Below, one piece after another: positions 6,425 to 52,048 of a stretch of DNA of 61,411 bases. This stretch comes from an uncultured Ruminococcus sp. Lineage in GTDB: Bacteria; Bacillota; Clostridia; Oscillospirales; Ruminococcaceae. The notes under the pieces were generated by a model. The model had not been told where the DNA came from. It ran no database searches and saw only the letters and a program-made list of their open reading frames with translations. Position 1 is the first letter of the stretch. Every line of letters begins with the position of its first letter. Both the position numbers and the translations under genes were made by a program. The stretch is taken from contig CACZGM010000030.1 of assembly GCA_902780695.1 (NCBI GenBank), positions 1 through 61,411 of the forward strand. The letters are read 5' to 3'.

Positions 6425-7303
6425 ATGCGAGGATTCAGAGAACTGAACCCTGCCGTGATCGCAGTATATTACCTGTGTGTTATCGGCACGGCTATGTTCA
6501 TAATGCATCCCGTTATCATCACCCTTTCACTTGTCGGTGCCGTGACACTGTACATAACGATCGACAAAAAGCGCAAAGCCGGGCTTCATATTTCGTTCTT
6601 TCTGCTGTTCCTGATACTCGCGGTCATAAATCCTATATGGTATCACAACGGAGTTACCGTTCTCTTTGTCGTCAACGACAGTCCTATAACACTTGAAGCT
6701 CTGCTCTACGGCGTTTTCGCCGCTGCAATGATAATATCGGTTCTTTACCGGTTCCGTACTTTCTCAATGATAATGACCGCCGACAAACTCATGTATATTT
6801 TCGGAAAGCTCTCGCCTAAAATCTCACTGATACTTTCAATGGCACTTCGATACATACCGCTTATGAGAAAGCAGACGGAAAAAGTCCGCAGCACGCAGAA
6901 GGCGCTCGGCATCTACCGCGGCGACAACATAGCCGACACACTCAAAGGCGAGATACGGATATTTTCGATAATGGCAACATGGTCACTCGAAAACGGCATA
7001 ATCACAGCCGACAGTATGGAAGCACGAGGTTACGGAGCCCAAAGGCGTACATCTTTCTCTCTGTTCAGACTAAAGGTTTCGGACGCGGTATTTCTCGTGC
7101 TGTGCCTTATACCGACCGCTATAGTGATAACAGCAGCAGTCATGGGCGAGACCGATATGACCTACTACCCTGCCTTATCCGCAGTCACGGCAAGTCCGCC
7201 CGCACTCGCGTCCTACATATCATACGGCATTCTGTCGTTTCTGCCCTCTATACTTGAATGGAAGGAGGTACTGCGTTGGAAATACTTAATATCAAAGATC
7301 TGA
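6425..7303 (+). CDS. ECF transporter transmembrane component EcfT
   Basis: A 292-residue polytopic membrane protein of the EcfT (CbiQ) family, which couples the ATPases to the substrate-binding S subunit. The family coupling region is recognisable in ADSMEARGYGAQRRTSF and in MALRYIPLMRKQTEKVRSTQKALG. The start at 6425 is chosen because GGAGG sits 8 bases upstream; the frame is open further up only through the 7-bp repeats. The gene overlaps the ATPase gene by 28 bases, showing translational coupling. Given the riboswitch and the transcobalamin-like proteins upstream, the cargo is probably cobalamin or another corrinoid. Confidence 0.9.
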   Translation: MRGFRELNPAVIAVYYLCVIGTAMFIMHPVIITLSLVGAVTLYITIDKKRKAGLHISFFLLFLILAVINPIWYHNGVTVLFVVNDSPITLEALLYGVFAAAMIISVLYRFRTFSMIMTADKLMYIFGKLSPKISLILSMALRYIPLMRKQTEKVRSTQKALGIYRGDNIADTLKGEIRIFSIMATWSLENGIITADSMEARGYGAQRRTSFSLFRLKVSDAVFLVLCLIPTAIVITAAVMGETDMTYYPALSAVTASPPALASYISYGILSFLPSILEWKEVLRWKYLISKI

Positions 7304-8898
7304 GTTTCACATATCCGCTCGCGGCATCTCCCGCCCTCAGAGATATCTCGTTTTCGGTGAACGAGGGCGAGTTCATAGCACTTTGCGGAGCTACAGGAAG
7401 CGGTAAATCCACACTGCTGAGAATGCTTAAACCCGAACTTTCGCCCCTCGGTGAAAAGTCGGGCAGCATTTCTTTCAAAGCACGTCCGATAGATACCGCA
7501 AAGCCCTCTGAAACAGGCTTCGTTATGCAGGACCCCGACCACCAGATCGTGACCGACAAAGTCTGGCATGAGCTTGCTTTCGGGCTGGAGAATATGGGAA
7601 TGCCGCATTCTGCTATTGCGAGAAAAACGGCTGAAATGGCAAGCTACTTCGGCATCGAGGACAAATTCGAGAGCAGCATCTCCGAACTGTCCGGCGGTCA
7701 GAAACAGCTCATAAATCTTGCCGCCGTAATGGTCACAGAACCGGAACTTCTCATTCTTGACGAACCGACCGCTCAGCTCGATCCGATAACCGCGTCAGAG
7801 CTTATAAACACGGTCAAAAAGATCAACCGTGACCTTTCACTCACCGTAATAATCGCAGAACACAGGCTTGAAGAAGTTATACCGATATGCGATAAGCTGC
7901 TCGTCATAGAGAACGGTACAGTGCTCGCTTTCGGAAAGCCGGAGGACGTTCTTAAACAGCTGTACGGGTACAGCGAGATCATGTGCGGAATGCCTGCCGC
8001 AGCGCGTATCTCTGCCCTTCTCGGCGAAAACGAATGTGCGCTGTCCGTGACACAGGGCAGAGAACTCGTCAGGAAATACGGCAATGAAAAGGAACTGCCG
8101 GAAAACAAGTCGGACAATAACAGCAAAAGGAACGCTGCTCTCGCGTTCCGGGACGTTTATTTCCGTTACGAACGAACGGCTCCGGACATTCTCAAGGGAT
8201 CAAGTTTCGAGGTCTATGAAAACGAGATATTCTGCATTCTCGGCGGCAACGGCTCCGGAAAAACAACGGCGCTTTCATGCGCTTCCGGTATTCTCCGTCC
8301 GTATTCCGGAAACATTTATGTTTTCGGAAAAAAGATCAGGGATTACAAGAACCAGTCGCTTTACAACGAATGTCTTGCGCTCCTTCCGCAGGACATAATG
8401 ACAGTGTTTCTGCGCAATACCGTCCGCGAAGAGCTTGACGACGCAGGTGCGGATATCAGCTCTCTGCCTTTCGATCTTACACCGCATCTCGGCAAGCACC
8501 CCTATGACCTGTCCGGGGGCGAAAGACAGCTCGCCGCACTCGCAAAAGTGCTTGCACTCAAACCGAAGCTGCTGCTGCTCGACGAACCGACAAAGGGACT
8601 TGACGCTGCCGCAAAGCAGCGGATAATATCACTTCTCCGGAAACTTACCGCAGACGGAATGACCATAGTTACCGTCACACACGACGTTGAGTTTGCCGCG
8701 GAATGTGCCGACAGATGTGCGCTGTTCTTCCGCGGCGAGATCGTATCGACCGCCCCGCCGGATGAGTTCTTCTCAGAAAACAGTTTTTATACTACTGCCG
8801 CAAGCCGTATCACACGAGGACATTTCCGCCGCGCTGTTACGGCACAGAAAGCCGCAGAGCTATGCAAGCTCAACGGTCTGAAGGAGGCGTGTGTATGA
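7276..8898 (+). CDS. ECF transporter ATPase, fused double ABC domain (EcfA-A')
   Basis: A 540-residue protein with two ABC ATPase domains in one chain, replacing separate EcfA1 and EcfA2 subunits. The first half has GATGSGKST (residues 38-46), LSGGQKQ and LLILDEPTAQLD. The second has GGNGSGKTT, LSGGERQ and LLLLDEPTKGLD. Both sites look catalytically complete. The TTG at 7276 is the best start: AAGGAGG lies 7 bases before it, whereas the ATG at 7258 lies ahead of that site and lacks one. The end overlaps the S-component start by the four bases ATGA. Confidence 0.93.
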   Translation: MEILNIKDLSFTYPLAASPALRDISFSVNEGEFIALCGATGSGKSTLLRMLKPELSPLGEKSGSISFKARPIDTAKPSETGFVMQDPDHQIVTDKVWHELAFGLENMGMPHSAIARKTAEMASYFGIEDKFESSISELSGGQKQLINLAAVMVTEPELLILDEPTAQLDPITASELINTVKKINRDLSLTVIIAEHRLEEVIPICDKLLVIENGTVLAFGKPEDVLKQLYGYSEIMCGMPAAARISALLGENECALSVTQGRELVRKYGNEKELPENKSDNNSKRNAALAFRDVYFRYERTAPDILKGSSFEVYENEIFCILGGNGSGKTTALSCASGILRPYSGNIYVFGKKIRDYKNQSLYNECLALLPQDIMTVFLRNTVREELDDAGADISSLPFDLTPHLGKHPYDLSGGERQLAALAKVLALKPKLLLLDEPTKGLDAAAKQRIISLLRKLTADGMTIVTVTHDVEFAAECADRCALFFRGEIVSTAPPDEFFSENSFYTTAASRITRGHFRRAVTAQKAAELCKLNGLKEACV

Positions 8899-38498: not shown

Positions 38499-40682
38499 TC
38501 ACTTGTCAAGGCGCTGTCGTTCAACAAGCTGTGCAAAATATCCGCCCTTCTCTATAAGCGAATCGTATGTGCCGTCCTCGATGACCGCTCCGTTGTCGAT
38601 GACAAGAATGCGGTCACAGTTCCTTATGGTTGACAGGCGGTGCGCCACAACTATTCTTGTGCATTCAAGGCTGTCAAGCGCTTCGGAGATCTTCTTCTGC
38701 GTCTTGTTGTCAAGTGCGGATGTTGCTTCATCAAAAATAAGGATATTCGGCTTCGGAGCAACCGCCCGCGCGATCATAAGCCTCTGCTTCTGACCGCCGG
38801 AAATACCGCCCTGACCCTCGGAGATCATCGTGTTCATTTCCATGGGCATCTCGCGTATATCATCGGCGATACCCGCTGTCTCAGCCGCTTCCCACGCGTC
38901 ATCAAGCGTAAGCTGCGGCGCGGAGATCACGATATTTGAAAAGATGTCGCTCTGGAACAGCTTGCCGTTCTGCGTTACAACGCCCATTTTCTTTCTTAAC
39001 GACTTCGGGTCTATCGACGAAAGATCCTTGCCGTCGTAGTATATAGCGCCCCTTTCAGGCTTTTCAAATCCGAGCAGCAGTCTTATGAGCGTTGACTTGC
39101 CGCAGCCTGTCCTCCCGACAATTGCTATATATTCACCCGCGCTTATCTTCAGAGAGAGATCTTTAAGAATGTACGGTGTATTGTCATCGTAACGAAAATA
39201 TACATGGTCGAGTTCTATCGCACCGGACACGCTGGTCACGACTTCTTTGTTCTCCGTGATCTCCGGTTCGGTTTTCATAATGGGTTCCGCCATTTTCAGT
39301 ATCGGTCTGAACGACGCGACCGAAGAAGCGATAGACGAAAGGGCGGAGAAAGCTCCCATGACCTGACCGTATGCCATTGTAAACGCAAAGTAGCTTGATT
39401 CGGATACTCCGCTTTCTACCGCGAAGAAATACAGAACTATATTGCCGACAAGGGATATGGCGGACAGGAAAACGCTGTTCAGCTTAAGTATCGTGGGCGG
39501 GTTATACTGCAATTCCGCACTCCGGGCATACAGATCAGCCCAACGTGAAAAAGCCCTGTTTTCCGAGCCGGACAGTCTTATCTTCTGTATTCCGTTTACG
39601 GTCGCGTAGGTCATACCCGTTTCTTTTGCGGAGATCTTCATTATCTTTTCGGAGAGCTTCATCTGCATCAGGGAGAACACCACACCCAGTATGACCGTAG
39701 AAAGGATAATAATGACTGACGGCAGTACGAGCATGGGGGCAAAGGTGAATATCTGCCCGATATAAAGCAGCGATGCGAGTGATACAAGCCCGGTGGAGAG
39801 TATCTGAGAAACAAGCATACTGCAAAGTGAGTTGACCGAGCTGACACGGGACGAAAGATCACCCGAGGCATACTTTCTGAAAAAGCTGACAGGCAGTGAC
39901 AGTACCCTCATCATCACGGCTGATTCCACCTGCAGGGATGTCTTGGTCGAGATCCTGCCCAGAAGAAGGCTTCTGACAGTATCCATAAGCTGCGCCGAGA
40001 CAGCCGCCGACAGAAGGAAAATCATCATGCTTATCAGGATAGTCATATTCCCGCTTTCCACTACCGGTCCTGTGATGACCTTTGAGATAAGCGGCTCAAA
40101 CATACCCACCAGAGTTACCGCGAGCGAAGCTGCAGCGATCAGGATATAATCACGTCCGGACAGACAGTTTTTCATATAGAGAATCAGATCCGGGATCCCC
40201 AGCTTCTTCTGCGGAAGAGGTTTATAGAAACATATCGCGTCATCTTCAAACAGCGCAGCGGTCTTTTTATCAAGCACGATCCAGCGGCCGCCCGACACAT
40301 CTCTGAAACGATATCCGTACAGGGGGTGTGGAATAAGAGCAACGGGGGCTCCGCCGTCCTTCAGAAATCCCATCATAGGTCCGAACGCGTCCTTATACCA
40401 GCCTTCTTCAAGCTTTACGGGACGGGTCATTATACCCAGAGGTCTTAAAATGTACTCCATCTGCTCGTCGGGATCCTTTATGCCGCCCGGCACCTCGGCC
40501 GCTTTGCAGTGGTAGTATTTCAGTATTTCATCAAGCGCTTCACGAACTACAAGAAGCCGATCCTCAAGCTGCTTTGCCGATCTGCCGCCCATAACAGCGC
40601 CGGCAAGTCTGACGAATGAGTCTTCAAGAACATCCTGATCGCTCTTCATTCTTTGTCTGATCTGTCTATCGAACCAGCCCAT
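38499..40682 (-). CDS. NHLP-type peptide export ABC transporter, permease/ATPase
   Basis: A 727-residue half-transporter. An N-terminal region of about 150 residues without a peptidase Cys is followed by six membrane helices (about 175-430) and an ABC ATPase with GRTGCGKST, ISGGQKQR, FDEATSALD and the switch histidine in VVAHRLST. This matches the permease/ATPase partner that accompanies the C39-peptidase transporter in NHLP/Nif11 peptide clusters. It lies 16 bases after that gene, and the two probably work together, as heterodimer or in series. Confidence 0.9.
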   Translation of the reverse strand: MGWFDRQIRQRMKSDQDVLEDSFVRLAGAVMGGRSAKQLEDRLLVVREALDEILKYYHCKAAEVPGGIKDPDEQMEYILRPLGIMTRPVKLEEGWYKDAFGPMMGFLKDGGAPVALIPHPLYGYRFRDVSGGRWIVLDKKTAALFEDDAICFYKPLPQKKLGIPDLILYMKNCLSGRDYILIAAASLAVTLVGMFEPLISKVITGPVVESGNMTILISMMIFLLSAAVSAQLMDTVRSLLLGRISTKTSLQVESAVMMRVLSLPVSFFRKYASGDLSSRVSSVNSLCSMLVSQILSTGLVSLASLLYIGQIFTFAPMLVLPSVIIILSTVILGVVFSLMQMKLSEKIMKISAKETGMTYATVNGIQKIRLSGSENRAFSRWADLYARSAELQYNPPTILKLNSVFLSAISLVGNIVLYFFAVESGVSESSYFAFTMAYGQVMGAFSALSSIASSVASFRPILKMAEPIMKTEPEITENKEVVTSVSGAIELDHVYFRYDDNTPYILKDLSLKISAGEYIAIVGRTGCGKSTLIRLLLGFEKPERGAIYYDGKDLSSIDPKSLRKKMGVVTQNGKLFQSDIFSNIVISAPQLTLDDAWEAAETAGIADDIREMPMEMNTMISEGQGGISGGQKQRLMIARAVAPKPNILIFDEATSALDNKTQKKISEALDSLECTRIVVAHRLSTIRNCDRILVIDNGAVIEDGTYDSLIEKGGYFAQLVERQRLDK

Positions 40683-40698
40683 TCATCGTACCTCTCAT

Positions 40699-42894
40699 TT
40701 ATTCCGCTGCTATCAGCTCGGTATAGTAACCGCCTTTTGCATATAATTCATCGTGCGTGCCGCGTTCTGCTATCACTCCCTTGTTCATGACTATGATCTC
40801 GTCACAGTCACGAATCGTGGAAAGCCGGTGAGCTATTACTATGCAGGTAATACCGCGGCGTTTTATGGCATTTACAACATCATATTCCGTACTTGCGTCA
40901 AGAGCGCTTGTGGCTTCGTCAAGAATTATCACCGAGGGATCCTGCGCCAGAACGCGGGCTATCTCCAGACGCTGCCGCTGACCGCCGGACAGATCGTTTC
41001 CGTCCTCGTTCAGCTTTCCCTGATATCCGCCCGGACGCTCCAGGATATCGTCATGTATCTGTGCGTCATGGGCAGCGATATATACTTCAAAATCGGCTAT
41101 GGAACTGTCCCACATTCTGATGTTTTCCGCAATGGAATCCTCAAACAGAGTTATATCCTGATCCACTACGGCGACAGAGCTTGTAAACACGCAGCGCGGT
41201 ATGTCCGATATGGGCTTTCCGTCGAACAGCACTTCACCGCTCCACGGGCTGTACAGACCGGAGATCAGTTTGGAGATCGTGCTTTTCCCGCACCCGCTGT
41301 CACCGACTATGGCGATCCGGCTTCCAGGTTCGAGCTTAATGGAAAAATCCTTGATGATCGGGTTTCCGAGTCTTGAATAGCCGAATGTCACGTTTTTCAG
41401 CTCTACACCGCCAAGGAGCTTTGAATAATCCACATCATCGGAGATAGGTTCGTCCCTTACATAAGGGTCGTTGGGATATCGCATAACATCTTCGACGCGC
41501 TCCATCTGTGTGCGCATCTCCTGTATCGTCTGTCCCGCGCCGATAAGTGTCATCGCGGGGCTTACAAAAGCGTTGAGATACCCCTGGAAAACGGTTATCA
41601 TACCTATCGTGAAATCGCCGTTCATAGTATAAACGACACCGAGGAACAGAACGGCATAGCCTGCCGTCTTACCGATCAGAGCGGGTATCAGTCCGAGGCG
41701 TGCGTTCATTTTTTCATACTTTCTTTTAGCGGTATTGACAGATGCCTGATATCCTGCCCATTTCTGGAAATAACCGCTTTCGGCACCCGTTGCCTTGATC
41801 GTTTCCGCCATATTTATACCTGCCATTGTGGCAGATATGAGCTTTCCCTCATCGCGCATCTGAACACGCGTCAGATTTACACGCCGCTTGCTCATTGACC
41901 TCGCGACCGCCAGATTCAGAAAAACGCTGACGATACCGACCAATGTCAGCACAGAGCTGTACCGTATCATGAATATCAGATATACGAACATCATGACGGT
42001 ATTGAGCAAGAGAGGCGAAACTGTATTGACTATAACTCCCGCTATCGAGGCGTTCGTTTTCTGTCTCCCGACTATATCACCGGTCATACGCTGGGTAAAG
42101 AACTCTATCGGCAGCCGCAGTATCTTCCACATATAGTCCGCATTGCCCATGACTGCCAGCTTGCCGTTTATCTTCAGTGAATAGACCGTATTCACCCATT
42201 GGACTATCAGCTGGGCTATACATAATGCGGACATGATGCCTGTGAACGGGTACAGCCATTCGATGTCCTTCCCGCTTAACAGCCTTTCATAAAAAACGCG
42301 CGTCATTGCGGGATTGATAAGCCCGAACAGATAGGTAATTACCGTTGTCAGCATAACGAACGCCACGGCGGCACCCGCACCGCGCAGACGGTTTTTCGCA
42401 AATTCTATCGTGCTGCGCGGTTTTCCGGACGGCACAAAATTCTTGCCCGGCGTGAACTGGATAGCGATTCCGGTAAAGGCAGTGTCCAGTTCCTTTATCG
42501 GTATTTTCACAATACCGCGTGCCGGATCATTGATGACCGCCTTATCGCCTCTGAAACCGCACAGCACGACAAAGTGGTTGAAATTCCAGTGTATAATGCA
42601 CGGATATGTCATATCATTCCTGAGCGAATCCAGATCCATGCTGTAACCGTCAACTTCAAAGCCGTAGCTCTGACCTGCGATCACAATGTTGCTCGCTTTG
42701 CTTCCGTCGCGGCTTACACCGCAGTCAAGACGCACCTGCTCCAGCGGCACCCATTTCCTGTAGTATGCCATTATCATCGTCAGGCATGCCGCTCCGCATT
42801 CGAGCGCTTCCAGCTGCATGACAACAGGCACCTTTGCCACGCCTTTGGTCAGCGGGCTCTTTACTTTTCTGCTGCGGGAGAGCTTTTCACTCAT
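40699..42894 (-). CDS. C39-peptidase ABC exporter (PCAT) for double-glycine leader peptides
   Basis: A 731-residue transporter with an N-terminal C39 protease that cuts leaders after Gly-Gly during export. Catalytic residues are intact: C33 (ALECGAACLTM), H107 (NHFVVLCG) and D123 (VINDPARG). Six membrane helices follow (about 170-440), then an ATPase with VGDSGCGKST, LSGGQRQR, IILDEATSALD and IVIAHRLST. Its substrates are very probably the four AGG-ended precursors encoded upstream. It starts 18 bases after the membrane-fusion-like gene. Confidence 0.95.
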   Translation of the reverse strand: MSEKLSRSRKVKSPLTKGVAKVPVVMQLEALECGAACLTMIMAYYRKWVPLEQVRLDCGVSRDGSKASNIVIAGQSYGFEVDGYSMDLDSLRNDMTYPCIIHWNFNHFVVLCGFRGDKAVINDPARGIVKIPIKELDTAFTGIAIQFTPGKNFVPSGKPRSTIEFAKNRLRGAGAAVAFVMLTTVITYLFGLINPAMTRVFYERLLSGKDIEWLYPFTGIMSALCIAQLIVQWVNTVYSLKINGKLAVMGNADYMWKILRLPIEFFTQRMTGDIVGRQKTNASIAGVIVNTVSPLLLNTVMMFVYLIFMIRYSSVLTLVGIVSVFLNLAVARSMSKRRVNLTRVQMRDEGKLISATMAGINMAETIKATGAESGYFQKWAGYQASVNTAKRKYEKMNARLGLIPALIGKTAGYAVLFLGVVYTMNGDFTIGMITVFQGYLNAFVSPAMTLIGAGQTIQEMRTQMERVEDVMRYPNDPYVRDEPISDDVDYSKLLGGVELKNVTFGYSRLGNPIIKDFSIKLEPGSRIAIVGDSGCGKSTISKLISGLYSPWSGEVLFDGKPISDIPRCVFTSSVAVVDQDITLFEDSIAENIRMWDSSIADFEVYIAAHDAQIHDDILERPGGYQGKLNEDGNDLSGGQRQRLEIARVLAQDPSVIILDEATSALDASTEYDVVNAIKRRGITCIVIAHRLSTIRDCDEIIVMNKGVIAERGTHDELYAKGGYYTELIAAE

Positions 42895-42912
42895 GAACCT
42901 ACTCTCCTTTCA

Positions 42913-43326
42913 TCAGTTGGTCAGAAACTGTATCGGGGTTATGATCTCGGTCACTACGGTGGCAGGATATGTCCCGTCCGGTAGGTCAACGGACGCGGTT
43001 GCCCGCACTGATTCCGAAGTGATCCAGCGGACATTCTCTATCTTTGCTTCCGTACCTTTGACACGCACTTCCATACCCTTGCCGAGAGCATCGGCATCTG
43101 ACCCTTCGGCTTCAAATACTGCCGTGCCGTTCTCTATCTTTACCGTCACATCTATCGTGCTTTCTACCTTGCCGAACACGGAAGCAATAAGAAATCCGGC
43201 AAGCAGAATAATAACAGCCGCAAGCACGATCCAGACACCGGGGTTCGTCACGCGCATATAATCCTGCAGCTGTTCCGGAGAGGATATCCTGTCAATGCTG
43301 GTTTGGCGAAAAAGTTTGTTTTCCAT
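42913..43326 (-). CDS. Short HlyD-like NHLP secretion accessory protein
   Basis: A 137-residue protein whose start, LFRQTSIDRISSPEQLQDYM, is the characteristic opening of NHLP bacteriocin-system secretion (HlyD-type) proteins. One TM helix (about 32-52) is followed by only about 85 residues of beta structure; the long coiled coil and lipoyl arms of full HlyD proteins are missing, as expected for a cell without an outer membrane. It has its own promoter and leader, and opens the export part of the cluster. Confidence 0.85.
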   Translation of the reverse strand: MENKLFRQTSIDRISSPEQLQDYMRVTNPGVWIVLAAVIILLAGFLIASVFGKVESTIDVTVKIENGTAVFEAEGSDADALGKGMEVRVKGTEAKIENVRWITSESVRATASVDLPDGTYPATVVTEIITPIQFLTN

Positions 43327-43420
43327 TTTTACCTACCATGTCCCTGTAAATCAAACGTCGATCAGCTTCCGTCCGCCGGATCCGGGCGGCACAGTGAGCT
43401 GACCGGCAATTACCCAATCA

Positions 43421-43468
43421 GAGCCGTATCATCGCACGTCACCAAAACCGGTGTGCGATATACGGCTC
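43421..43468 (-). promoter_or_regulatory. Leader stem-loop of the exporter transcript
   Basis: GAGCCGTA (43421-43428) pairs with TACGGCTC (43461-43468), and inside this CGCAC pairs with GTGCG, giving a strong hairpin between promoter and first exporter gene. No T-run follows, so it is not an obvious terminator. Confidence 0.6.
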
Positions 43469-43478
43469 ACTTGTGTTT

Positions 43479-43507
43479 ATTTTATCACAATTATTAAAAA
43501 ATGTCAA
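43479..43507 (-). promoter_or_regulatory. Internal promoter of the exporter genes
   Basis: Minus strand TTGACA (43507-43502), 17 bases, TAAAAT (43484-43479), between the ketosynthase-like gene and the secretion protein gene. Confidence 0.82.
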
Positions 43508-43553
43508 ATATCGCCGCTCGGTTTTATCGGAGCATACCGCGCATTTTTCGGAG

Positions 43554-44534
43554 CTATACTCTTCCGATAATCGCCGTGCAGTAATTTCCGACCATATCAA
43601 TGCCGGCAATAAGCACTTTATCATACTTTCCGAGCTTTATCGCGGCGGCGGCAAAAGCGGCGTTCATCATATAACCGCAGCCGAGGGTCTCGCCGAAATA
43701 TTTCTTCGGGGCGATGCGCACGGCGTCCGGGAATTTCCTGTTTAACGCGGCGTTTTCCGCGTCGTCGGAATATGTCCCGTTCGCGGCAGTGAATACCGCG
43801 TCGGGCTCGGTTTTGTATCTGTCAAGCACACTGTAAATTATTCCGGCAGCACCGTCTTCGGGTTTATAAAGCAGCGGGCTTTTTCCGAGCGATGCGGACG
43901 AAAAAGCGGTCACTTTGCATATCGTCTTTCCGGTTTTTTCGCGCGAAAGCATAAACATTGCCGCACCCTCGGACAATTCACTGCCTTTCAGCGCATCGAG
44001 CTTTCCGAGCTCTGCATAAAGAGCTTCATTGTATTCCTCGACCGAACCGCAGAGTATCATATCCGCCTTGCCCGTTCCGAGCAGCAGAGAGGAATATTCG
44101 AGCGGGTCTCCGCCGGTGAGCACAGTGCTGACACCCTTGAAGCCGTTCAGAATGCATATCTGTCCGACACAGGCGTTCGGTACCATTCCGGAATACACCG
44201 CGGGACTGCAAAGTGCCGGAACGCCCTTTGCCACCGTATCGGCGAACTGCGTGTAATACACGCTCGAACCGTAGCCGGTGGAGATTATCGTACCTATCCT
44301 GCGGCGGTCTGTATCTTCGGGGACAGCAGCTTCACGGACAGCGTTGTCCGCGGCAGTGCAGGCGATTTTGTTGTATCTGCTGTTGCGGCGCATTTTCGCG
44401 GGCGGTATCTGCATTTCAAACTCTATCGGCATAGCGGCGGCTGTATATCCGGCACCGTCCGCAGCAGCTGTCACTTCATCAAATGTCTTTGCACAGCGGG
44501 AAATGATGCCGACACTCTCTATGTATGCTGTCAT
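43554..44534 (-). CDS. Ketosynthase-like protein lacking the catalytic triad (chain-length-factor-like)
   Basis: A 326-residue thiolase-fold protein resembling beta-ketoacyl synthases, but all three catalytic residues are changed. The nucleophile region reads GVSTVLTGGD, with Leu139 where Cys is expected; the HGTGT region reads AANGTYSDDAE, with Asn252; and the GHxxGA region reads YFGETLGCG, with Glu282. Such non-catalytic partners (chain length factors or KS-beta) dimerise with an active ketosynthase in type II polyketide and aryl-polyene systems. The start at 44534 overlaps the active ketosynthase stop by ATGA, as expected for subunits made in equal amounts. Confidence 0.8.
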   Translation of the reverse strand: MTAYIESVGIISRCAKTFDEVTAAADGAGYTAAAMPIEFEMQIPPAKMRRNSRYNKIACTAADNAVREAAVPEDTDRRRIGTIISTGYGSSVYYTQFADTVAKGVPALCSPAVYSGMVPNACVGQICILNGFKGVSTVLTGGDPLEYSSLLLGTGKADMILCGSVEEYNEALYAELGKLDALKGSELSEGAAMFMLSREKTGKTICKVTAFSSASLGKSPLLYKPEDGAAGIIYSVLDRYKTEPDAVFTAANGTYSDDAENAALNRKFPDAVRIAPKKYFGETLGCGYMMNAAFAAAAIKLGKYDKVLIAGIDMVGNYCTAIIGRV

Positions 44535-45631
44535 TGCTCCACCCACTTTCTTATCACGATACTTGCACTGTTGCCCGCAAAACCGAAGCTGTTCGACATA
44601 GCGTAGTCTATGCTGATTTTTTCGGGAGCGTCAAACATTCCGCTGTCATCGAGCGGTTCGGTCAGATTGGGCATAACGACAGGCTCGCCACTTTGCATAG
44701 AGTTCAGGACGCTTGCAAGCTCTACGGCTCCGGACGCACCCATGCAGTGTCCGATAACCGCCTTTGTCGAGCTTACGAACGGCTTCTTTTCAACGCCGTC
44801 ATACAGCTTTTTCAGCGCACCCGTCTCCATTGAATCATTCAGCATCGTGCCGGTCCCGTGACCGTTGATGTAGTCTGTCTGTCCGGCTGTTATTCCCGCA
44901 TCACCGAGCGCATTCATCATAAGATGATATGCCTCTTCGCCTGTGGGCTCGGGGCTTGTTGCGTGATACGCGTCATTGCCGCTCGCAAAACCGAGGATCT
45001 CGCAGTATATCTTCGCTTTTCTCGCAAGAGCGCTGTCGAGAGTTTCAAGCATGAAAAACGCTCCGCCTTCTCCGATGTTGATCCCGTCGCGCTTCACATC
45101 ATAAGGATTGCAGACATCTTTACTCAGCGATTTAAGACAGTTGAAGCCGAAGCCCGCTATCAGTGTGAGCTCCTCAGCTCCGCCTGCGACCGCGGCAGTG
45201 CAGAAGCCGTTCCGAATAAAGTCGAAAGCCATTCCTATCGCGGTAGTTCCTGCCGCGCATGAAGCCGACGAAATATCCACAGTTCCGCGCACGCCCGCAA
45301 GACCGGCGGCATATACCGCAAACTCGTTCATCACAGCAAGCGAGTCCGCACCGCTTCTGCTGTGTTCAAGATATGCGTTGTCGCGTGCGAGAAGCGTGCC
45401 GAAGAACATACGGCAATCAGCGCCGTATCCGGAAATATCCTCTTTTGTAAGACCTGTGTCGGCAAGCATATCACCGACAGTGCGGCGGATAATGTCGTAC
45501 AGCCGGTTCTCACGGTCAAGTCCGTCGATCTCGGCGAATTTGTCCGTTGAAAGCCCTGTCGTGTCAAATACGGTACAATGCTTTATACTGCCGGCAAGGC
45601 AGCCCATTCCCGTTATTACTACTCTGTTCAT
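44531..45631 (-). CDS. Beta-ketoacyl-ACP synthase (active ketosynthase)
   Basis: A 366-residue condensing enzyme of the KAS II/KS-alpha type. The triad is complete: C125 in SSASCAAGT, H258 in NGHGTGT and H295 in VIGHCMGASGA. It would elongate an acyl chain on an acyl carrier protein by decarboxylative condensation. It is slightly shorter than FabF (about 410). Start and stop each overlap their neighbours by ATGA, coupling it to the carrier protein before and the decayed ketosynthase after it. Within a precursor-peptide cluster it probably builds an acyl group for the peptide or a separate lipid; the product is unknown. Confidence 0.9.
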   Translation of the reverse strand: MNRVVITGMGCLAGSIKHCTVFDTTGLSTDKFAEIDGLDRENRLYDIIRRTVGDMLADTGLTKEDISGYGADCRMFFGTLLARDNAYLEHSRSGADSLAVMNEFAVYAAGLAGVRGTVDISSASCAAGTTAIGMAFDFIRNGFCTAAVAGGAEELTLIAGFGFNCLKSLSKDVCNPYDVKRDGINIGEGGAFFMLETLDSALARKAKIYCEILGFASGNDAYHATSPEPTGEEAYHLMMNALGDAGITAGQTDYINGHGTGTMLNDSMETGALKKLYDGVEKKPFVSSTKAVIGHCMGASGAVELASVLNSMQSGEPVVMPNLTEPLDDSGMFDAPEKISIDYAMSNSFGFAGNSASIVIRKWVEQ

Positions 45632-45900
45632 TCGTTAATACCATGCTCGTTCAGATATGCCGCTATCGCGTTCACCGAGTACAGCTTCTTAACGTCCTCC
45701 GCCGGAACGTCAAATCCGAACTGCTCATATATCATTGTTACCAGTTCGAGCGAATCTATCGAATCAAGTCCGAGGTTCGGACGATCATCACCCGTGTTGA
45801 AGATGATAGTATCGTCGTTCATTCCGGAGAGAGTATTTTCGTCCAGGTCAAGATGGGAGATAAGGCTCTCTCTTATTTTTACAAGAAAATCTTCGTTCAT
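45628..45900 (-). CDS. Acyl carrier protein
   Basis: A 90-residue carrier protein. The phosphopantetheine site is in LGLDSIDSLELVTMIYEQFG (Ser47). It has about ten extra residues before the last helices compared with a housekeeping AcpP (NDDTIIFNTGDDRPN), so it looks dedicated to this cluster. It has an AAGGAG site and overlaps the ketosynthase gene by ATGA. No phosphopantetheinyl transferase is nearby; the cell's own would be needed. Confidence 0.92.
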   Translation of the reverse strand: MNEDFLVKIRESLISHLDLDENTLSGMNDDTIIFNTGDDRPNLGLDSIDSLELVTMIYEQFGFDVPAEDVKKLYSVNAIAAYLNEHGINE

Positions 45901-45918
45901 AATTTCGGCTCCTTTTCT

Positions 45919-45943
45919 GGAGAATAATCACAGCTTATTCTCC
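45919..45943 (-). promoter_or_regulatory. Stem-loop between precursor genes and the ACP gene
   Basis: Perfect 9-bp stem GGAGAATAA/TTATTCTCC with a 7-base loop, no T-run. It may protect the 3' end of a precursor mRNA or lower expression of the enzyme genes relative to the peptides. Confidence 0.6.
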
Positions 45944-45973
45944 TGCCTGTTTTTAGACCGATATCGGTCATGA

Positions 45974-46363
45974 TCAATAATCCGGCTTATACGGATCATA
46001 TTCCTGACTGTTCTGATCACAGTAATAATTATCCTTACACCATGTTCCGGTATCTTTCTGATAATAATAGTCATGATAAGAAACCGCGCATCCCATTTCA
46101 TGACCGTCGGGCGCATCCTCGCCCTGCCATACCATGCCGCCTGCTACGGTTTCAAGCTCTTCCACGGAAAGTCTGGTCTTTTTCGCTTTCTCCGTCTTGA
46201 ACTTCTTCTCAGCTTCGACAAGCTCGTCAAGAGTTACATCATAACCCATTTCAACAGCTTTTGCGGCAAGCTCCGCAGGGTCGGAGATATCCTTTATCTT
46301 TGCTTTGAGTTCATTGTTTGTCTGAAGCTCCGCTATGAGCTTCTTTGCGGTCTCTTTTGACAT
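45974..46363 (-). CDS. Precursor peptide 4, Nif11/NHLP-type leader
   Basis: A 129-residue precursor: a 76-residue leader beginning MSKETAKKLIAEL and ending LSVEELETVAGG, then a 53-residue core. The core keeps the shared frame WQGEDAPDGHEMGC, SYHDY, WC and YC with Cys spacing C-x16-C-x5-C. It ends in QEYDPYKPDY. The start at 46363 has GAGGAGG; an in-frame ATG at 46408 overlaps the previous gene but would add 15 residues absent from the other copies. It is the last of four and the most divergent leader. It should be cleaved and exported by the C39 transporter. Confidence 0.9.
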   Translation of the reverse strand: MSKETAKKLIAELQTNNELKAKIKDISDPAELAAKAVEMGYDVTLDELVEAEKKFKTEKAKKTRLSVEELETVAGGMVWQGEDAPDGHEMGCAVSYHDYYYQKDTGTWCKDNYYCDQNSQEYDPYKPDY

Positions 46364-46404
46364 CTTTTCTTCCTCCTCGGCTGTTCCGGTAATACAGTCA
46401 GCGA

Positions 46405-46803
46405 TCACAGCGGACCAACCTCGCCATGCCCTGACGAGTGTTCTTCATAGTTCTGCTCACAATAATAGCTTTCCTGACACCATATATTATTCTCTTTCTG
46501 ATAATCATAGTCATGATAAGATACTCCACATCCAAGTTCATGTCCGTCCGGTGCGTCCTCGCCCTGCCATACGGCACCGCCTGCCACAGCGTCAAGTTCA
46601 TCCACGGAAAGCTTCGTCTTCTTTGCCTTTTCCGTTCTGAATTCCTTCTCGGCTGCGATCATCTCCTCCGCAGTAACATCATATCCTGCGTCAGCGGCGA
46701 CCTTCACAAGCTGTCCGGGATCGGTGATGCCCTGTACCTTTGCTTTGAGTTCTTCGTTCGTCTGAAGCTCTGCTATGAGCTTCTTTGCGGTTTCTTTTGA
46801 CAT
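46405..46803 (-). CDS. Precursor peptide 3, Nif11/NHLP-type leader
   Basis: A 132-residue precursor with a 76-residue leader ending LSVDELDAVAGG and a 56-residue core. Core frame: WQGEDAPDGHELGC, SYHDYDYQ, WC and YC, again C-x16-C-x5-C, then a His/Glu/Ser tail. The ATG at 46803 matches the other copies and has GAGGA; an ATG at 46824 is less likely. The first 30 core residues are the same as in precursor 1 and the DNA is nearly identical there, showing recent duplication. Confidence 0.92.
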   Translation of the reverse strand: MSKETAKKLIAELQTNEELKAKVQGITDPGQLVKVAADAGYDVTAEEMIAAEKEFRTEKAKKTKLSVDELDAVAGGAVWQGEDAPDGHELGCGVSYHDYDYQKENNIWCQESYYCEQNYEEHSSGHGEVGPL

Positions 46804-46895
46804 TTTTTTCATCCTCACTTTCATTAAGATAATCTGCGTCTGATGCCTGTGTCAGGTGTTACGGTCATTTTCAGCCGCGATCACTGCCGGTCAGA

Positions 46896-47273
46896 CTAAT
46901 TGTCGTCATTGGTTATAATGTTACTTAAGCAATAAAACGAATTATAGCACCAGATATCGTTTTCCTGCTGATAATCATAGCCATGATAAGAAGTCAGACA
47001 GCCCATTTCATGACCATCGGGCGCGTCATCACCGGTCCATACGTCACCACCCGCCACGGCGTCGAGTTCCTCCACGGATAGTTTTGTTTTCCCGGCTTTT
47101 TCCGATCTGAATATCTTCTCGGCTGCGGCCATTTCCTCCGCGGTAACATCGTATCCCGCGGAGGCGGCAGCTTTTACAAGCTGTGCGGGGTCGGTGATTC
47201 CCTTGATCTTTGCCTTAAGATCTTCGTTTGTCTGAAGCTCGGCTATGAGCTTCTTTGCTGTTTCCTTTGACAT
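46896..47273 (-). CDS. Precursor peptide 2, Nif11/NHLP-type leader
   Basis: A 125-residue precursor: leader of 76 residues ending LSVEELDAVAGG and a 49-residue core with WTGDDAPDGHEMGC, SYHGYDYQQ, WC and YC (C-x16-C-x5-C), ending in NIITNDDN. The core contains no lysine or arginine, so any modification shared by the four peptides cannot be on a lysine side chain. AAAGGAGG precedes the start. It is the most divergent core of the four. Confidence 0.92.
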   Translation of the reverse strand: MSKETAKKLIAELQTNEDLKAKIKGITDPAQLVKAAASAGYDVTAEEMAAAEKIFRSEKAGKTKLSVEELDAVAGGDVWTGDDAPDGHEMGCLTSYHGYDYQQENDIWCYNSFYCLSNIITNDDN

Positions 47274-47308
47274 TTCAAGTAACCTCCTTTAAAGATCCGG
47301 TAATACCG

Positions 47309-47707
47309 TCATTTTCCCGTGAAATCTGCACACTCCGGGTCAGGCATATTAAATTCGCCGCTGCAGTAATATGATTCGTGGCACCATATATTATTCTCTT
47401 TCTGATAATCATAGTCATGATAAGATACTCCACATCCAAGTTCATGACCGTCGGGCGCGTCCTCGCCCTGCCATACGGCACCGCCTGCCACAGCGTCAAG
47501 TTCTTCCACGGAAAGTTTCGTCTTCTTTGCCTGTTCCGCTCTGAATTCCTTCTCGGCTGCGATCATCTCCTCCGCGGTAACGTCGTACCCCGCGTCAACA
47601 GCGACCTTCACAAGCTGTCCGAGATCGGTGATGCCATTCACCTTTGCTTTGAGCTCTTCGTTCGTCTGAAGCTCTGCTATGAGCTTCTTTGCGGTTTCCT
47701 TTGACAT
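47309..47707 (-). CDS. Precursor peptide 1, Nif11/NHLP-type leader
   Basis: The promoter-proximal precursor, 132 residues: a 76-residue leader ending LSVEELDAVAGG and a 56-residue core. The core shares WQGEDAPDGHELGC, SYHDYDYQK, WC and YC with spacing C-x16-C-x5-C, then has a fourth cysteine in PDPECADF. AGGAGG lies 8 bases before the ATG. The core is acidic and aromatic, with conserved Trp, His, Tyr and Cys, unlike typical membrane-active bacteriocins. It heads the four-precursor, ACP and ketosynthase transcript. Confidence 0.93.
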   Translation of the reverse strand: MSKETAKKLIAELQTNEELKAKVNGITDLGQLVKVAVDAGYDVTAEEMIAAEKEFRAEQAKKTKLSVEELDAVAGGAVWQGEDAPDGHELGCGVSYHDYDYQKENNIWCHESYYCSGEFNMPDPECADFTGK

Positions 47708-47882
47708 GATAAGTTCCTCCTATAAGTTTATACTGTATTCTGGACTTGCTGGCACCGGTAAACGAAAAAAATTTTTCGCTCCCGCTTTCCGCCTTATACA
47801 GCTGAAACTCGGATCAGATATCCGGATCAAGCAGCTCTCCGTTCCGGGGGTTTTATGAACCGAAACGAAATTTTACTATCTA

Positions 47883-47911
47883 ATAATACCACAAAATTTC
47901 AAAAAAATCAA
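47883..47911 (-). promoter_or_regulatory. Promoter of the precursor-ACP-ketosynthase transcript
   Basis: Minus strand TTGATT (47911-47906), 17 bases, TATTAT (47888-47883). It leaves an untranslated leader of about 170 bases before precursor 1. The 325-base gap otherwise holds only the terminator of the upstream lipoprotein gene. Confidence 0.75.
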
Positions 47912-51227: not shown

Positions 51228-51338
51228 ATGTTAAAAAAATGTCCAACAAACGGTTCTTCAGGCCGTCCCGAAAGACGTGCCGGAAGACCGATGCCTGCTC
51301 CCTTCAATATGTACAGACTGCGCGGACCGTGCAGCTGA
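51228..51338 (+). CDS. Small 36-residue protein, Pro/Arg-rich
   Basis: Reads MLKKCPTNGSSGRPERRAG and so on to RLRGPCS. It has AGGAGG nine bases upstream and a strong promoter, and precedes the 61-residue protein and the sigma factor in one transcript. It contains two cysteines and the repeated GRPxR/GRPMP pattern. I do not recognise it; it may be a genuine small protein, a leader peptide controlling the operon, or noncoding. Confidence 0.5.
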   Translation: MLKKCPTNGSSGRPERRAGRPMPAPFNMYRLRGPCS

Positions 51339-51378
51339 CAGGCTGAAGTCGGAAAAACGGGCAAAGGAGGTTACTATA

Positions 51379-51564
51379 ATGGAACGAAAATTGAAAAATC
51401 TGTTTGATTTTCAGCGTTTCGCGCGCAATCCGGCATTACAGCGCATAATTGATGAGGCAGAAAGCTATACCGAAGCCGTTGAGCTGTCCGATGATGTACT
51501 CGGACTCGCGGCAGGCGGAACCGCTGTCGATCCCGAAAAGATAAAGGGAGCGAAAAATGGCTGA
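51379..51564 (+). CDS. Small protein ahead of the ECF sigma factor, with double-glycine-like segment
   Basis: A 61-residue protein beginning MERKLKNLFDFQRFARNP and containing ELSDDVLGLAAGG followed by a 14-residue tail. AAAGGAGG lies at good spacing. The stop overlaps the sigma-factor start by eight bases, so the two are coupled. Small proteins with the opening LFDxQRF next to sigma-70 genes occur in Ruminococcaceae, to my recollection, possibly as anti-sigma factors or regulators. The LAAGG end also resembles a leader of a processed peptide. I cannot decide between these. Confidence 0.75.
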   Translation: MERKLKNLFDFQRFARNPALQRIIDEAESYTEAVELSDDVLGLAAGGTAVDPEKIKGAKNG

Positions 51565-52048
51565 AATCAGTTCCGAACAGATCTATCTCGATTACCGCTC
51601 AAAGGTGGCGGCATATATATCAAGCCATATCCGCAACCGTGAGGACGCCGAGGATCTCGTTTCGGAGGTCTTTATAAAGGTTCATGCGTCGATAGACAGA
51701 TTCGACGAGACCAAGGCGTCCGTTTCGACTTGGGTATATACCATAACCCGTAATACCGTTACGGATTTTCTCCGCCGGAACCGCATTACCGAGGAGCTGC
51801 CAGAGGACGCTCCCTCGCCGCTTCTCACCGAGGAAAGCTATCTGAACGAGGAAACACTTTCCGAACTCGCCGAGGCTCTGACACACCTCGAAGACGACGA
51901 GCGCCGCATAATAGTTCTCCGGTACGGCAGCGGTATGCCGCTTACGGAGATAGCCAACAAGCTGGGTTTAAGCTACGGCGCGGTGAAGATACGACACCGC
52001 AAGGCTCTGAACAAGCTTGAGGAACTGATGAAGAAAAACAATATATGA
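51557..52048 (+). CDS. ECF-type RNA polymerase sigma factor
   Basis: A 163-residue sigma-70 family protein with region 2 (SHIRNREDAEDLVSEVFIKVHASIDRF, STWVYTITRNTVTDFLRR) and region 4 (DDERRIIVLRYG, then the HTH PLTEIANKLGLSYGAVKIRHRKAL). This is the normal two-domain ECF architecture. It directs RNA polymerase to a special promoter set, unknown here. Its upstream coupled small protein is the best candidate for a cognate regulator. A terminator follows. Confidence 0.93.
   Translation: MAEISSEQIYLDYRSKVAAYISSHIRNREDAEDLVSEVFIKVHASIDRFDETKASVSTWVYTITRNTVTDFLRRNRITEELPEDAPSPLLTEESYLNEETLSELAEALTHLEDDERRIIVLRYGSGMPLTEIANKLGLSYGAVKIRHRKALNKLEELMKKNNI

Follow-up and report, generated by a model that had tools for sequence, protein, structure and literature searches.

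A probable selidamide-like lipopeptide system with a dedicated ketosynthase pair, dispersed over three contigs of an uncultured Ruminococcus genome

Gene content and proposed pathway

The DNA analysed here is a stretch of 61,411 nucleotides (the window; contig CACZGM010000030.1 of assembly GCA_902780695.1) from an uncultured Ruminococcus sp., a Clostridia genome with relatives in the rumen. The list of open reading frames (ORFs) and a reading of the sequence gave ten same-direction genes on its minus strand, running from 47707 to 38499: four Nif11-leader precursor peptides (P1 to P4), an acyl carrier protein (ACP), an intact ketosynthase (KSα), a ketosynthase partner without the catalytic triad (KSβ), and an NHLP-type export set. 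This content, with an ATGA overlap at both the ACP/KSα and the KSα/KSβ junction, had been given in a preliminary description made from the sequence alone, and it is borne out by the ORFs, profiles and alignments. The window probably holds one part of a ribosomal lipopeptide system whose genes are dispersed over three places. From sequence comparison we think it likely that the system is selidamide-like, a tandem GNAT acyltransferase moving a chain from a dedicated KSα/KSβ-ACP set, with or without a ketoreductase, onto the exported peptides.

In the proposed pathway, KSα, KSβ and the ACP would build the acyl chain, with KSβ as the non-catalytic chain-length partner, and a FabG-like ketoreductase encoded on another contig of the assembly (C34) would reduce the beta-keto group. 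The product would be a 3-hydroxyacyl chain, or a saturated one made with the help of housekeeping fatty acid synthase (FAS) enzymes. The tandem GNAT, encoded on a further contig (C77), would carry this chain from the ACP (or from CoA) onto the core part of a Nif11 precursor with its leader attached, and a radical SAM protein, also on C77, would add a second modification. ABC1 would then cleave after the double glycine, and ABC1, ABC2 and the HlyD-like protein would export the product. In favour of this reading, several relatives have these parts side by side in a single row. G, C and L numbers below denote genomes, contigs and loci, G000 being the genome of the window.

Conservation and gene order in the genus

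A search of 60 related genomes with KSα matched 46, of which only G000, G007, G011 and G002 gave close matches (77-100% identity, plus one fragment at 57%); all other matches reached at most 44% identity. With KSβ, 17 of 71 genus genomes matched at E ≤ 0.001; in 11 of them the matches are real, at 14 loci and with 68-100% identity, whereas those of the other six are weak (at most 20.5 bits). A GNAT of the C77 kind was present in all 11 KSβ genomes and in none of the other 60. When the G007 GNAT was used as query (E ≤ 0.001), 15 of the 71 genomes matched; the 11 with close matches (52-100%) were exactly the KSβ genomes, and the four others reached only 27-32%. The G088 GNAT is an 83-residue piece with a stop, and G070 has two GNAT copies, both cut by contig ends. 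The precursor subfamily (E ≤ 1e-15) was found in 10 of the 11 KSβ genomes, G088 lacking it, and in none of the 60 others, while at E ≤ 0.001 all 11 had a precursor match, weak in G088. The radical SAM protein (E ≤ 1e-100) was found in eight of the 11 and in one of the 60 others (G089). Fisher p values for association with KSβ, uncorrected for kinship, were 4e-13 for the GNAT, 2e-11 for the precursors and 1e-7 for the radical SAM protein. The preliminary description had made its proposal depend on KS and ACP genes being conserved beside such precursors; they are, in the genus and at three distant loci, together with an NHLP exporter, and a recurrence at 14 loci in 11 of 71 genomes plus these three loci is beyond chance.

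The consensus order in the relatives is radical SAM - precursors - GNAT - ACP - KSα - KSβ - ketoreductase - HlyD-like - ABC1 - ABC2. At L097 all of these genes lie in one row, with five precursors and two HlyD-like genes, and the other genus loci are parts of the full order, often ended by a contig boundary. The ketoreductase, a short-chain dehydrogenase/reductase (SDR) near FabG, directly follows KSβ at 11 of the 14 loci, the exceptions being the window, G011 C1 and G070 C37. At 10 of the 14 loci the distance between the GNAT and the ACP-KS block is no more than about 1 kb (the GNAT being downstream in G011, and partial in G088 and G070 C162); a GNAT cannot be seen on two G002 contigs, which begin inside KSα, and is absent at the window and at G070 C37. 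The acyl part had been described as reduced to KSα, KSβ and ACP, which does not hold: the relatives add a tandem GNAT, mostly a ketoreductase and often a radical SAM protein, and the genome of the window has all three (C77, C34).

It is conceivable that the KS, ACP, ketoreductase and GNAT genes make a separate small molecule, such as an N-acylated amino acid, and have nothing but locus and regulation in common with the peptides. Small N-acyl compounds are also among the products of GNATs, one precursor core in the window (P2) has no side-chain amine, and in G060 the KS block and the precursor array are on separate contigs, as is likewise the case in G011, where ACP-KSα-KSβ-GNAT are on C1 and the precursor and exporter on C6. 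We nevertheless consider a separate product unlikely, given that the precursors form a same-strand row with the GNAT and ACP at L086, L094, L097 and L098, that within the genus the precursor subfamily is confined to KS genomes, and that GNAT homologues without KS genes are still found with peptides or an exporter.

The ketosynthase pair and its carrier protein

The ACP (45628..45900) matches PF00550 at 36.2 bits and shares 76-86% identity with its genus relatives and 42-50% with the distant loci L099-L101. It is followed by KSα (44531..45631, 366 amino acids; PF00109 and PF02801) and KSβ (43554..44534, 326 amino acids; PF00109 at 25.6 bits), for which the ORF list uses a GTG start at 44546 and the feature coordinates end at 44534. 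Alignments show that KSα keeps the Cys, His and His of the triad. In all 11 aligned genus rows KSβ has Asn and Glu instead of the two histidines, and its nucleophile position lacks a Cys; the triad is likewise lost in L099-L101, where a gap decides which residue is aligned with the Cys. With the GLDSIDS motif read in the ACP, which we take to contain the serine attachment site, the features of a type II polyketide synthase (PKS) minimal set are present, and KSα-KSβ is a putative heterodimer of the chain-building kind. The pair resembles the KS-chain length factor pairs of type II PKS and FAS systems in that a catalytic KS, a triad-less partner, an ACP and a ketoreductase stand in a row in the relatives. 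It differs in that KSα forms its own clade, distinct from FabF and from the other KS rows included, the best PDB sequence match of KSβ is a FabF at 48 bits, and neither a dehydratase nor a cyclase was seen in the block. An AlphaFold model of KSβ, at a predicted local distance difference test score (pLDDT) of 40, was too poor for use. The PDB entries matched by sequence overall were KS proteins, of FabF type and others, and generic GNATs.

In the KSα tree the nine selected family rows form one clade (support 100/99) separate from 17 FabF rows, with G011 KSα as the neighbour of window KSα (support 89/70); the remaining KS rows are long-branched and their placement is uncertain. A stray primary FAS set was considered as an identity for the KS genes and was rejected, the KSα clade being separate from the FabF rows. 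Two other KS-like pieces lie at contig ends in the window's genome, on C20 and C25.

Compared with L021, the nonsynonymous and synonymous divergences (dN and dS) were 0.10 and 1.07 for KSα, 0.14 and 1.06 for KSβ, and 0.09 and 1.02 for the ACP. Relative to their homologues, KSα, KSβ, ACP, GNAT, radical SAM and ketoreductase genes gave dN/dS of about 0.04-0.22, rough ratios since most pairs have a dS close to 1 or higher. These values bear on the idea that the KS and ACP genes of the window are relics of a broken-up locus whose four peptides are exported unacylated. Such a history would suit the location of the GNAT, radical SAM and ketoreductase genes elsewhere, the precursor stub adjoining the C77 GNAT and the one decayed KS copy in G070, but window KSα, KSβ and ACP, the C77 GNAT and radical SAM genes and the C34 ketoreductase are all open frames with dN/dS in that range, and we regard decay as quite improbable.

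The acyltransferase

The GNAT domain that Pfam recognises lies towards the N-terminus of the protein. The L086 homologue was modelled with AlphaFold2 (pLDDT 87, predicted template modelling score 0.72), and a Foldseek search with the model put tandem GNATs first (7q3a, 2wpw and VipF 6wqb), with template modelling scores by query length of only 0.45-0.56 for the top ten. The selidamide enzyme NpuN is reported as a tandem GNAT in PMC13060382, and the same fold is predicted here, a likeness by reported architecture only. Some row starts in the GNAT alignment were set from match positions. As in selidamides, a GNAT appears to belong to the system, through C77 and the 10 genus loci mentioned above, its function being predicted.

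The preliminary description had raised the possibility that the KS pair itself joins chain and peptide, with no GNAT involved. The KS genes do adjoin the precursors in a neighbourhood without a GNAT, and KSα is partly similar to AmcF (182.7 bits, cut-off 325), a profile whose NCBIfam name is cispentacin acyltransferase subunit, but it scores higher against the FabF profile (224 bits). Furthermore, KSβ comes with the GNAT at L099-L101 and in each of the 11 genomes of the genus, G088 and G070 having it in incomplete form, and with a GNAT present the KS pair would not be needed for attachment, which makes this mechanism very improbable. More distant GNATs in the genus, at about 30% identity (29-32%), were also found beside exporter genes at L061 and L062 and beside double-glycine peptides at L060, L061 and L062, with no KS among the matches there; because of these neighbours the GNAT appears to be tied to peptides rather than to KS genes alone.

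Distant loci and rarity

A scan of named genomes gave 16 loci, of which 13 are the genus itself, under the names Ruminiclostridium sp., uncultured Clostridia bacterium and Ruminococcaceae bacterium UBA3215, and three are distant. Four of the genus loci are metagenome-assembled genomes (MAGs) from water deer rumen or omasum, isolates RGIG8838, RGIG9212 and RGIG9238 (two with more than one contig). Of the distant loci, L099 and L100 are Ruminococcus sp. MAGs and L101 is a Selenomonadales MAG. All three have the order GNAT-ACP-KSα-KSβ, with 42-53% identity for ACP, KSα and KSβ and 25-31% for the GNAT, and all three have exporter genes resembling ABC1, ABC2 and HlyD as well as a nearby double-glycine peptide gene, the leader of which is Nif11-like by eye only. 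The ketoreductase is present in L099 and L100 and absent from L101. At L099 the tandem GNAT (7097-8001) consists of two overlapping ORFs (200 and 101 amino acids), either a frameshift or two subunits.

No further close KSβ relatives were found in a sample of 394 genomes of the order, nor among the matches listed for a sample of 398 phylum genomes; 196 of the latter pass E 1e-9 with KSβ, and the best other match among those listed scores 65 bits, compared with 584. Three of these phylum genomes (G643, G760 and G762) had no precursor or GNAT among their matches. As far as seen, KSβ matches outside the family stand at the level of FabF or belong to other KS pairs, and they were set aside. Proteins of about 780-800 amino acids, apparently two fused KS units, adjoin an ACP at L027 (10136-12526), L028 (5123-7516), L029 (1857-4202) and L184 (9028-11442), with an SDR beside those of L027, L028 and L184 and no Nif11 precursor among the matches at any of the four.

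Dispersal in the genome of the window

The absence of GNAT and radical SAM genes noted in the preliminary description stands for the neighbourhood of the window and fails for the genome and for the block of the relatives. In the same assembly, C77 carries a radical SAM protein (71% identity), a precursor stub and a GNAT (57%), in the relatives' order radical SAM - precursor - GNAT, and C34 carries a ketoreductase (82%); the matches in the surrounding 19.9 kb include no further gene of the pathway. The assembly holds every pathway part, over three contigs (C30, which is the window, C77 and C34). This suggests dispersal of the pathway over the genome, in which case cluster-based mining would misjudge the key enzyme as lacking, the error made for this window in the preliminary description.

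The genome of the window also contains a second NHLP cluster (L154, on C62, 207-7960), with a different radical SAM protein (38%), exporter and precursors. These precursors have a DGKEIGC-type motif and mostly a CxxC end, and no KS or GNAT was among the matches there.

Precursors, core peptides and the acylation site

The precursors are P1 (47309..47707, 132 amino acids), P2 (46896..47273, 125), P3 (46405..46803, 132) and P4 (45974..46363, 129). All four exceed the cut-offs of PF07862 and TIGR03798 (42.0 and 43.6 bits for P1; the scans of P3 and P4 included 7 and 15 additional N-terminal residues), and a VAGG cleavage site precedes the core. With a double-glycine Nif11-like leader and an NHLP exporter that has a C39 peptidase, the row has the marks of a Nif11/NHLP-type ribosomally synthesized and post-translationally modified peptide (RiPP) system. 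In G060 a run of 23 Nif11-type precursor genes (L158, C25, 1828-12242) lies on a contig apart from the KS block.

Core peptides were aligned from 11 of the 14 sources, giving 73 distinct cores, some from contigs other than that of the KS block in the same genome; the set excludes four precursors with an early GG site, repeats with identical cores (the whole of L054 among them) and any precursor that matches P1-P4 less well than E 1e-20. Numbered by alignment column, Glu16 and Cys19 are present in 73 of 73 cores, Cys36 in 72 (the remaining core is truncated) and Cys42 in 54, and column 22 is Ser or Cys in 71 (35 Ser, 36 Cys). The DGHE-GC motif is unspecific, being also found in precursors of a KS-less NHLP cluster of the same genome.

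Several observations weigh against the proposed pathway. Lys is missing from three of the 73 genus cores, in no alignment column does it occur in more than one third of them, and only five have it at position 1. The P2 core, alone among the 73, has neither Lys nor Arg and therefore cannot be a Lys/Orn selidamide, whereas P1, P3 and P4 contain Lys. The window's GNAT, radical SAM and ketoreductase genes are not neighbours, and their cooperation across three contigs is an inference. Tetranucleotide distances of 0.092 for C77 and 0.088 for C34 fall within the window's own range (0.085-0.110), as do those of sister species (0.096), so composition is compatible also with a binning error or contamination from a close relative. 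The KS copy on G070 C37 is a remnant without GNAT or ketoreductase. The radical SAM protein was not found in G011, G088 or G090 at E ≤ 1e-100, two of which are 83-87% complete, and G089 has it without KSβ; because three carriers lack it at this threshold, it may not be obligatory. Finally, a GNAT profile run on a sample of 391 class genomes (E ≤ 1e-9) found nothing beyond the window's own genome, so the system is rare.

Lys at position 1 was found in the L100 core, the L101 core and two of five double-glycine cores at KS-less L060, and not in the L099, L061 and L062 cores. NpuA also starts with Lys and is acylated on this Lys1, so amide formation at the same position is plausible for L100 and L101. 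The genus may use a different acceptor: acylation of Cys or Ser, acylation of only some of the precursors, or a site made by the radical SAM protein are possible. A tentative alternative, which we hold possible without expecting it, is a ribosomal peptide class with its own chain-building KSα/KSβ-ACP-ketoreductase set in which the chain sits on a conserved core Cys or Ser (columns 19, 22 and 36) instead of an amine; the products would then be exported lipopeptides with a thioester or ester link, supplied by large precursor arrays.

Comparison with known systems

The preliminary description had reported no lanthionine enzymes, and in agreement with this the LANC_like model PF05147 matched none of five genomes examined from the 11 KSβ carriers (one of 14 controls matched), a model that would miss cyclases outside it. 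The lanthionine cyclase of the lanthipeptide-based lipopeptides (lipolanthines, goadvionins and lipoavitides) was thus not found in these five genomes. UPF0489 (PF12640), presumably the family of Orn-forming peptide arginases, gave no match above cut-off in the five genomes, the one weak match, in G076, containing a stop and scoring 21.3 bits against a cut-off of 27; there was none in 14 controls, a set that had no positive control.

The selidamides (nostolysamide/NpuN, phaeornamide and kamptornamide) are alike in having an NHLP or Nif11 leader, double-glycine cleavage and a GNAT acyltransferase. According to PMC13060382 and PMC9505594, primary metabolism supplies the acyl chains of the known selidamides and the acylated residue is Lys or (hydroxy)Orn, and phaeornamide carries a 3-hydroxydecanoyl group (PMC9505594). 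The present system differs in its dedicated KSα/KSβ-ACP set, mostly with ketoreductase, its radical SAM protein in most carriers, the one core without Lys and Arg, and the lack of a LanC-like protein in five of five genomes. The dedicated set argues against a chain drawn from primary metabolism. Membership in the selidamides is not claimed, and Lys/Orn acylation is impossible for P2.

Lipoavitides are reported to be RiPPs with their own free-standing fatty-acid enzymes and an acyltransferase. They reportedly use KSIII-type starter chemistry, whereas KSα/KSβ, a Nif11 leader and no LanC-like protein (in the five genomes) were found here. Goadvionins and lipolanthines (microvionin) are reported to have a polyketide-type acyl chain on a ribosomal peptide, joined in goadvionin by an acyltransferase; here, by contrast, there are a few stand-alone genes and the leader is probably removed at export. 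Among the titles, abstract openings and passages covered by searches of open-licence PMC articles, none described the combination of Nif11 precursors with KSα/KSβ/ACP and a GNAT. Known RiPP lipopeptides use fatty acids of primary metabolism or larger PKS/FAS assemblies. If the proposed pathway is correct, a compact KSα/KSβ-ACP-ketoreductase set with a GNAT and up to 23 precursors per row would be a small, portable route to lipopeptides, in hosts that are uncultured relatives of rumen bacteria and hard to study.

Exporter and neighbouring genes

The exporter genes complete the row on the minus strand. ABC1 (NHLM_micro_ABC1, 40699..42894) exceeds the cut-off of TIGR03796 at 880.7 bits and has a C39 double-glycine peptidase (PF03412), and ABC2 (NHLM ABC2, 38499..40682) exceeds that of TIGR03797 at 721.9 bits. 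The short HlyD-like NHLP export protein (42913..43326, 137 amino acids) matches only positions 1-46 of the 421 in TIGR03794, at 27.9 bits and below cut-off, and had no match in PHROGs. Short homologues recur in the relatives, the proteins of the window, L021, L053, L056 and L156 being only 137-148 amino acids long.

On the plus strand of the window, a short double-glycine peptide gene (51277-51564) runs into the beginning of another gene (51557-52048), whose product resembles an RpoE-type sigma factor by eye. Comparable pairs lie close to an NHLP exporter in L021, L059, L187 and L023, and the pair at 51277-52048 might encode a signal for export together with a regulator dedicated to it.

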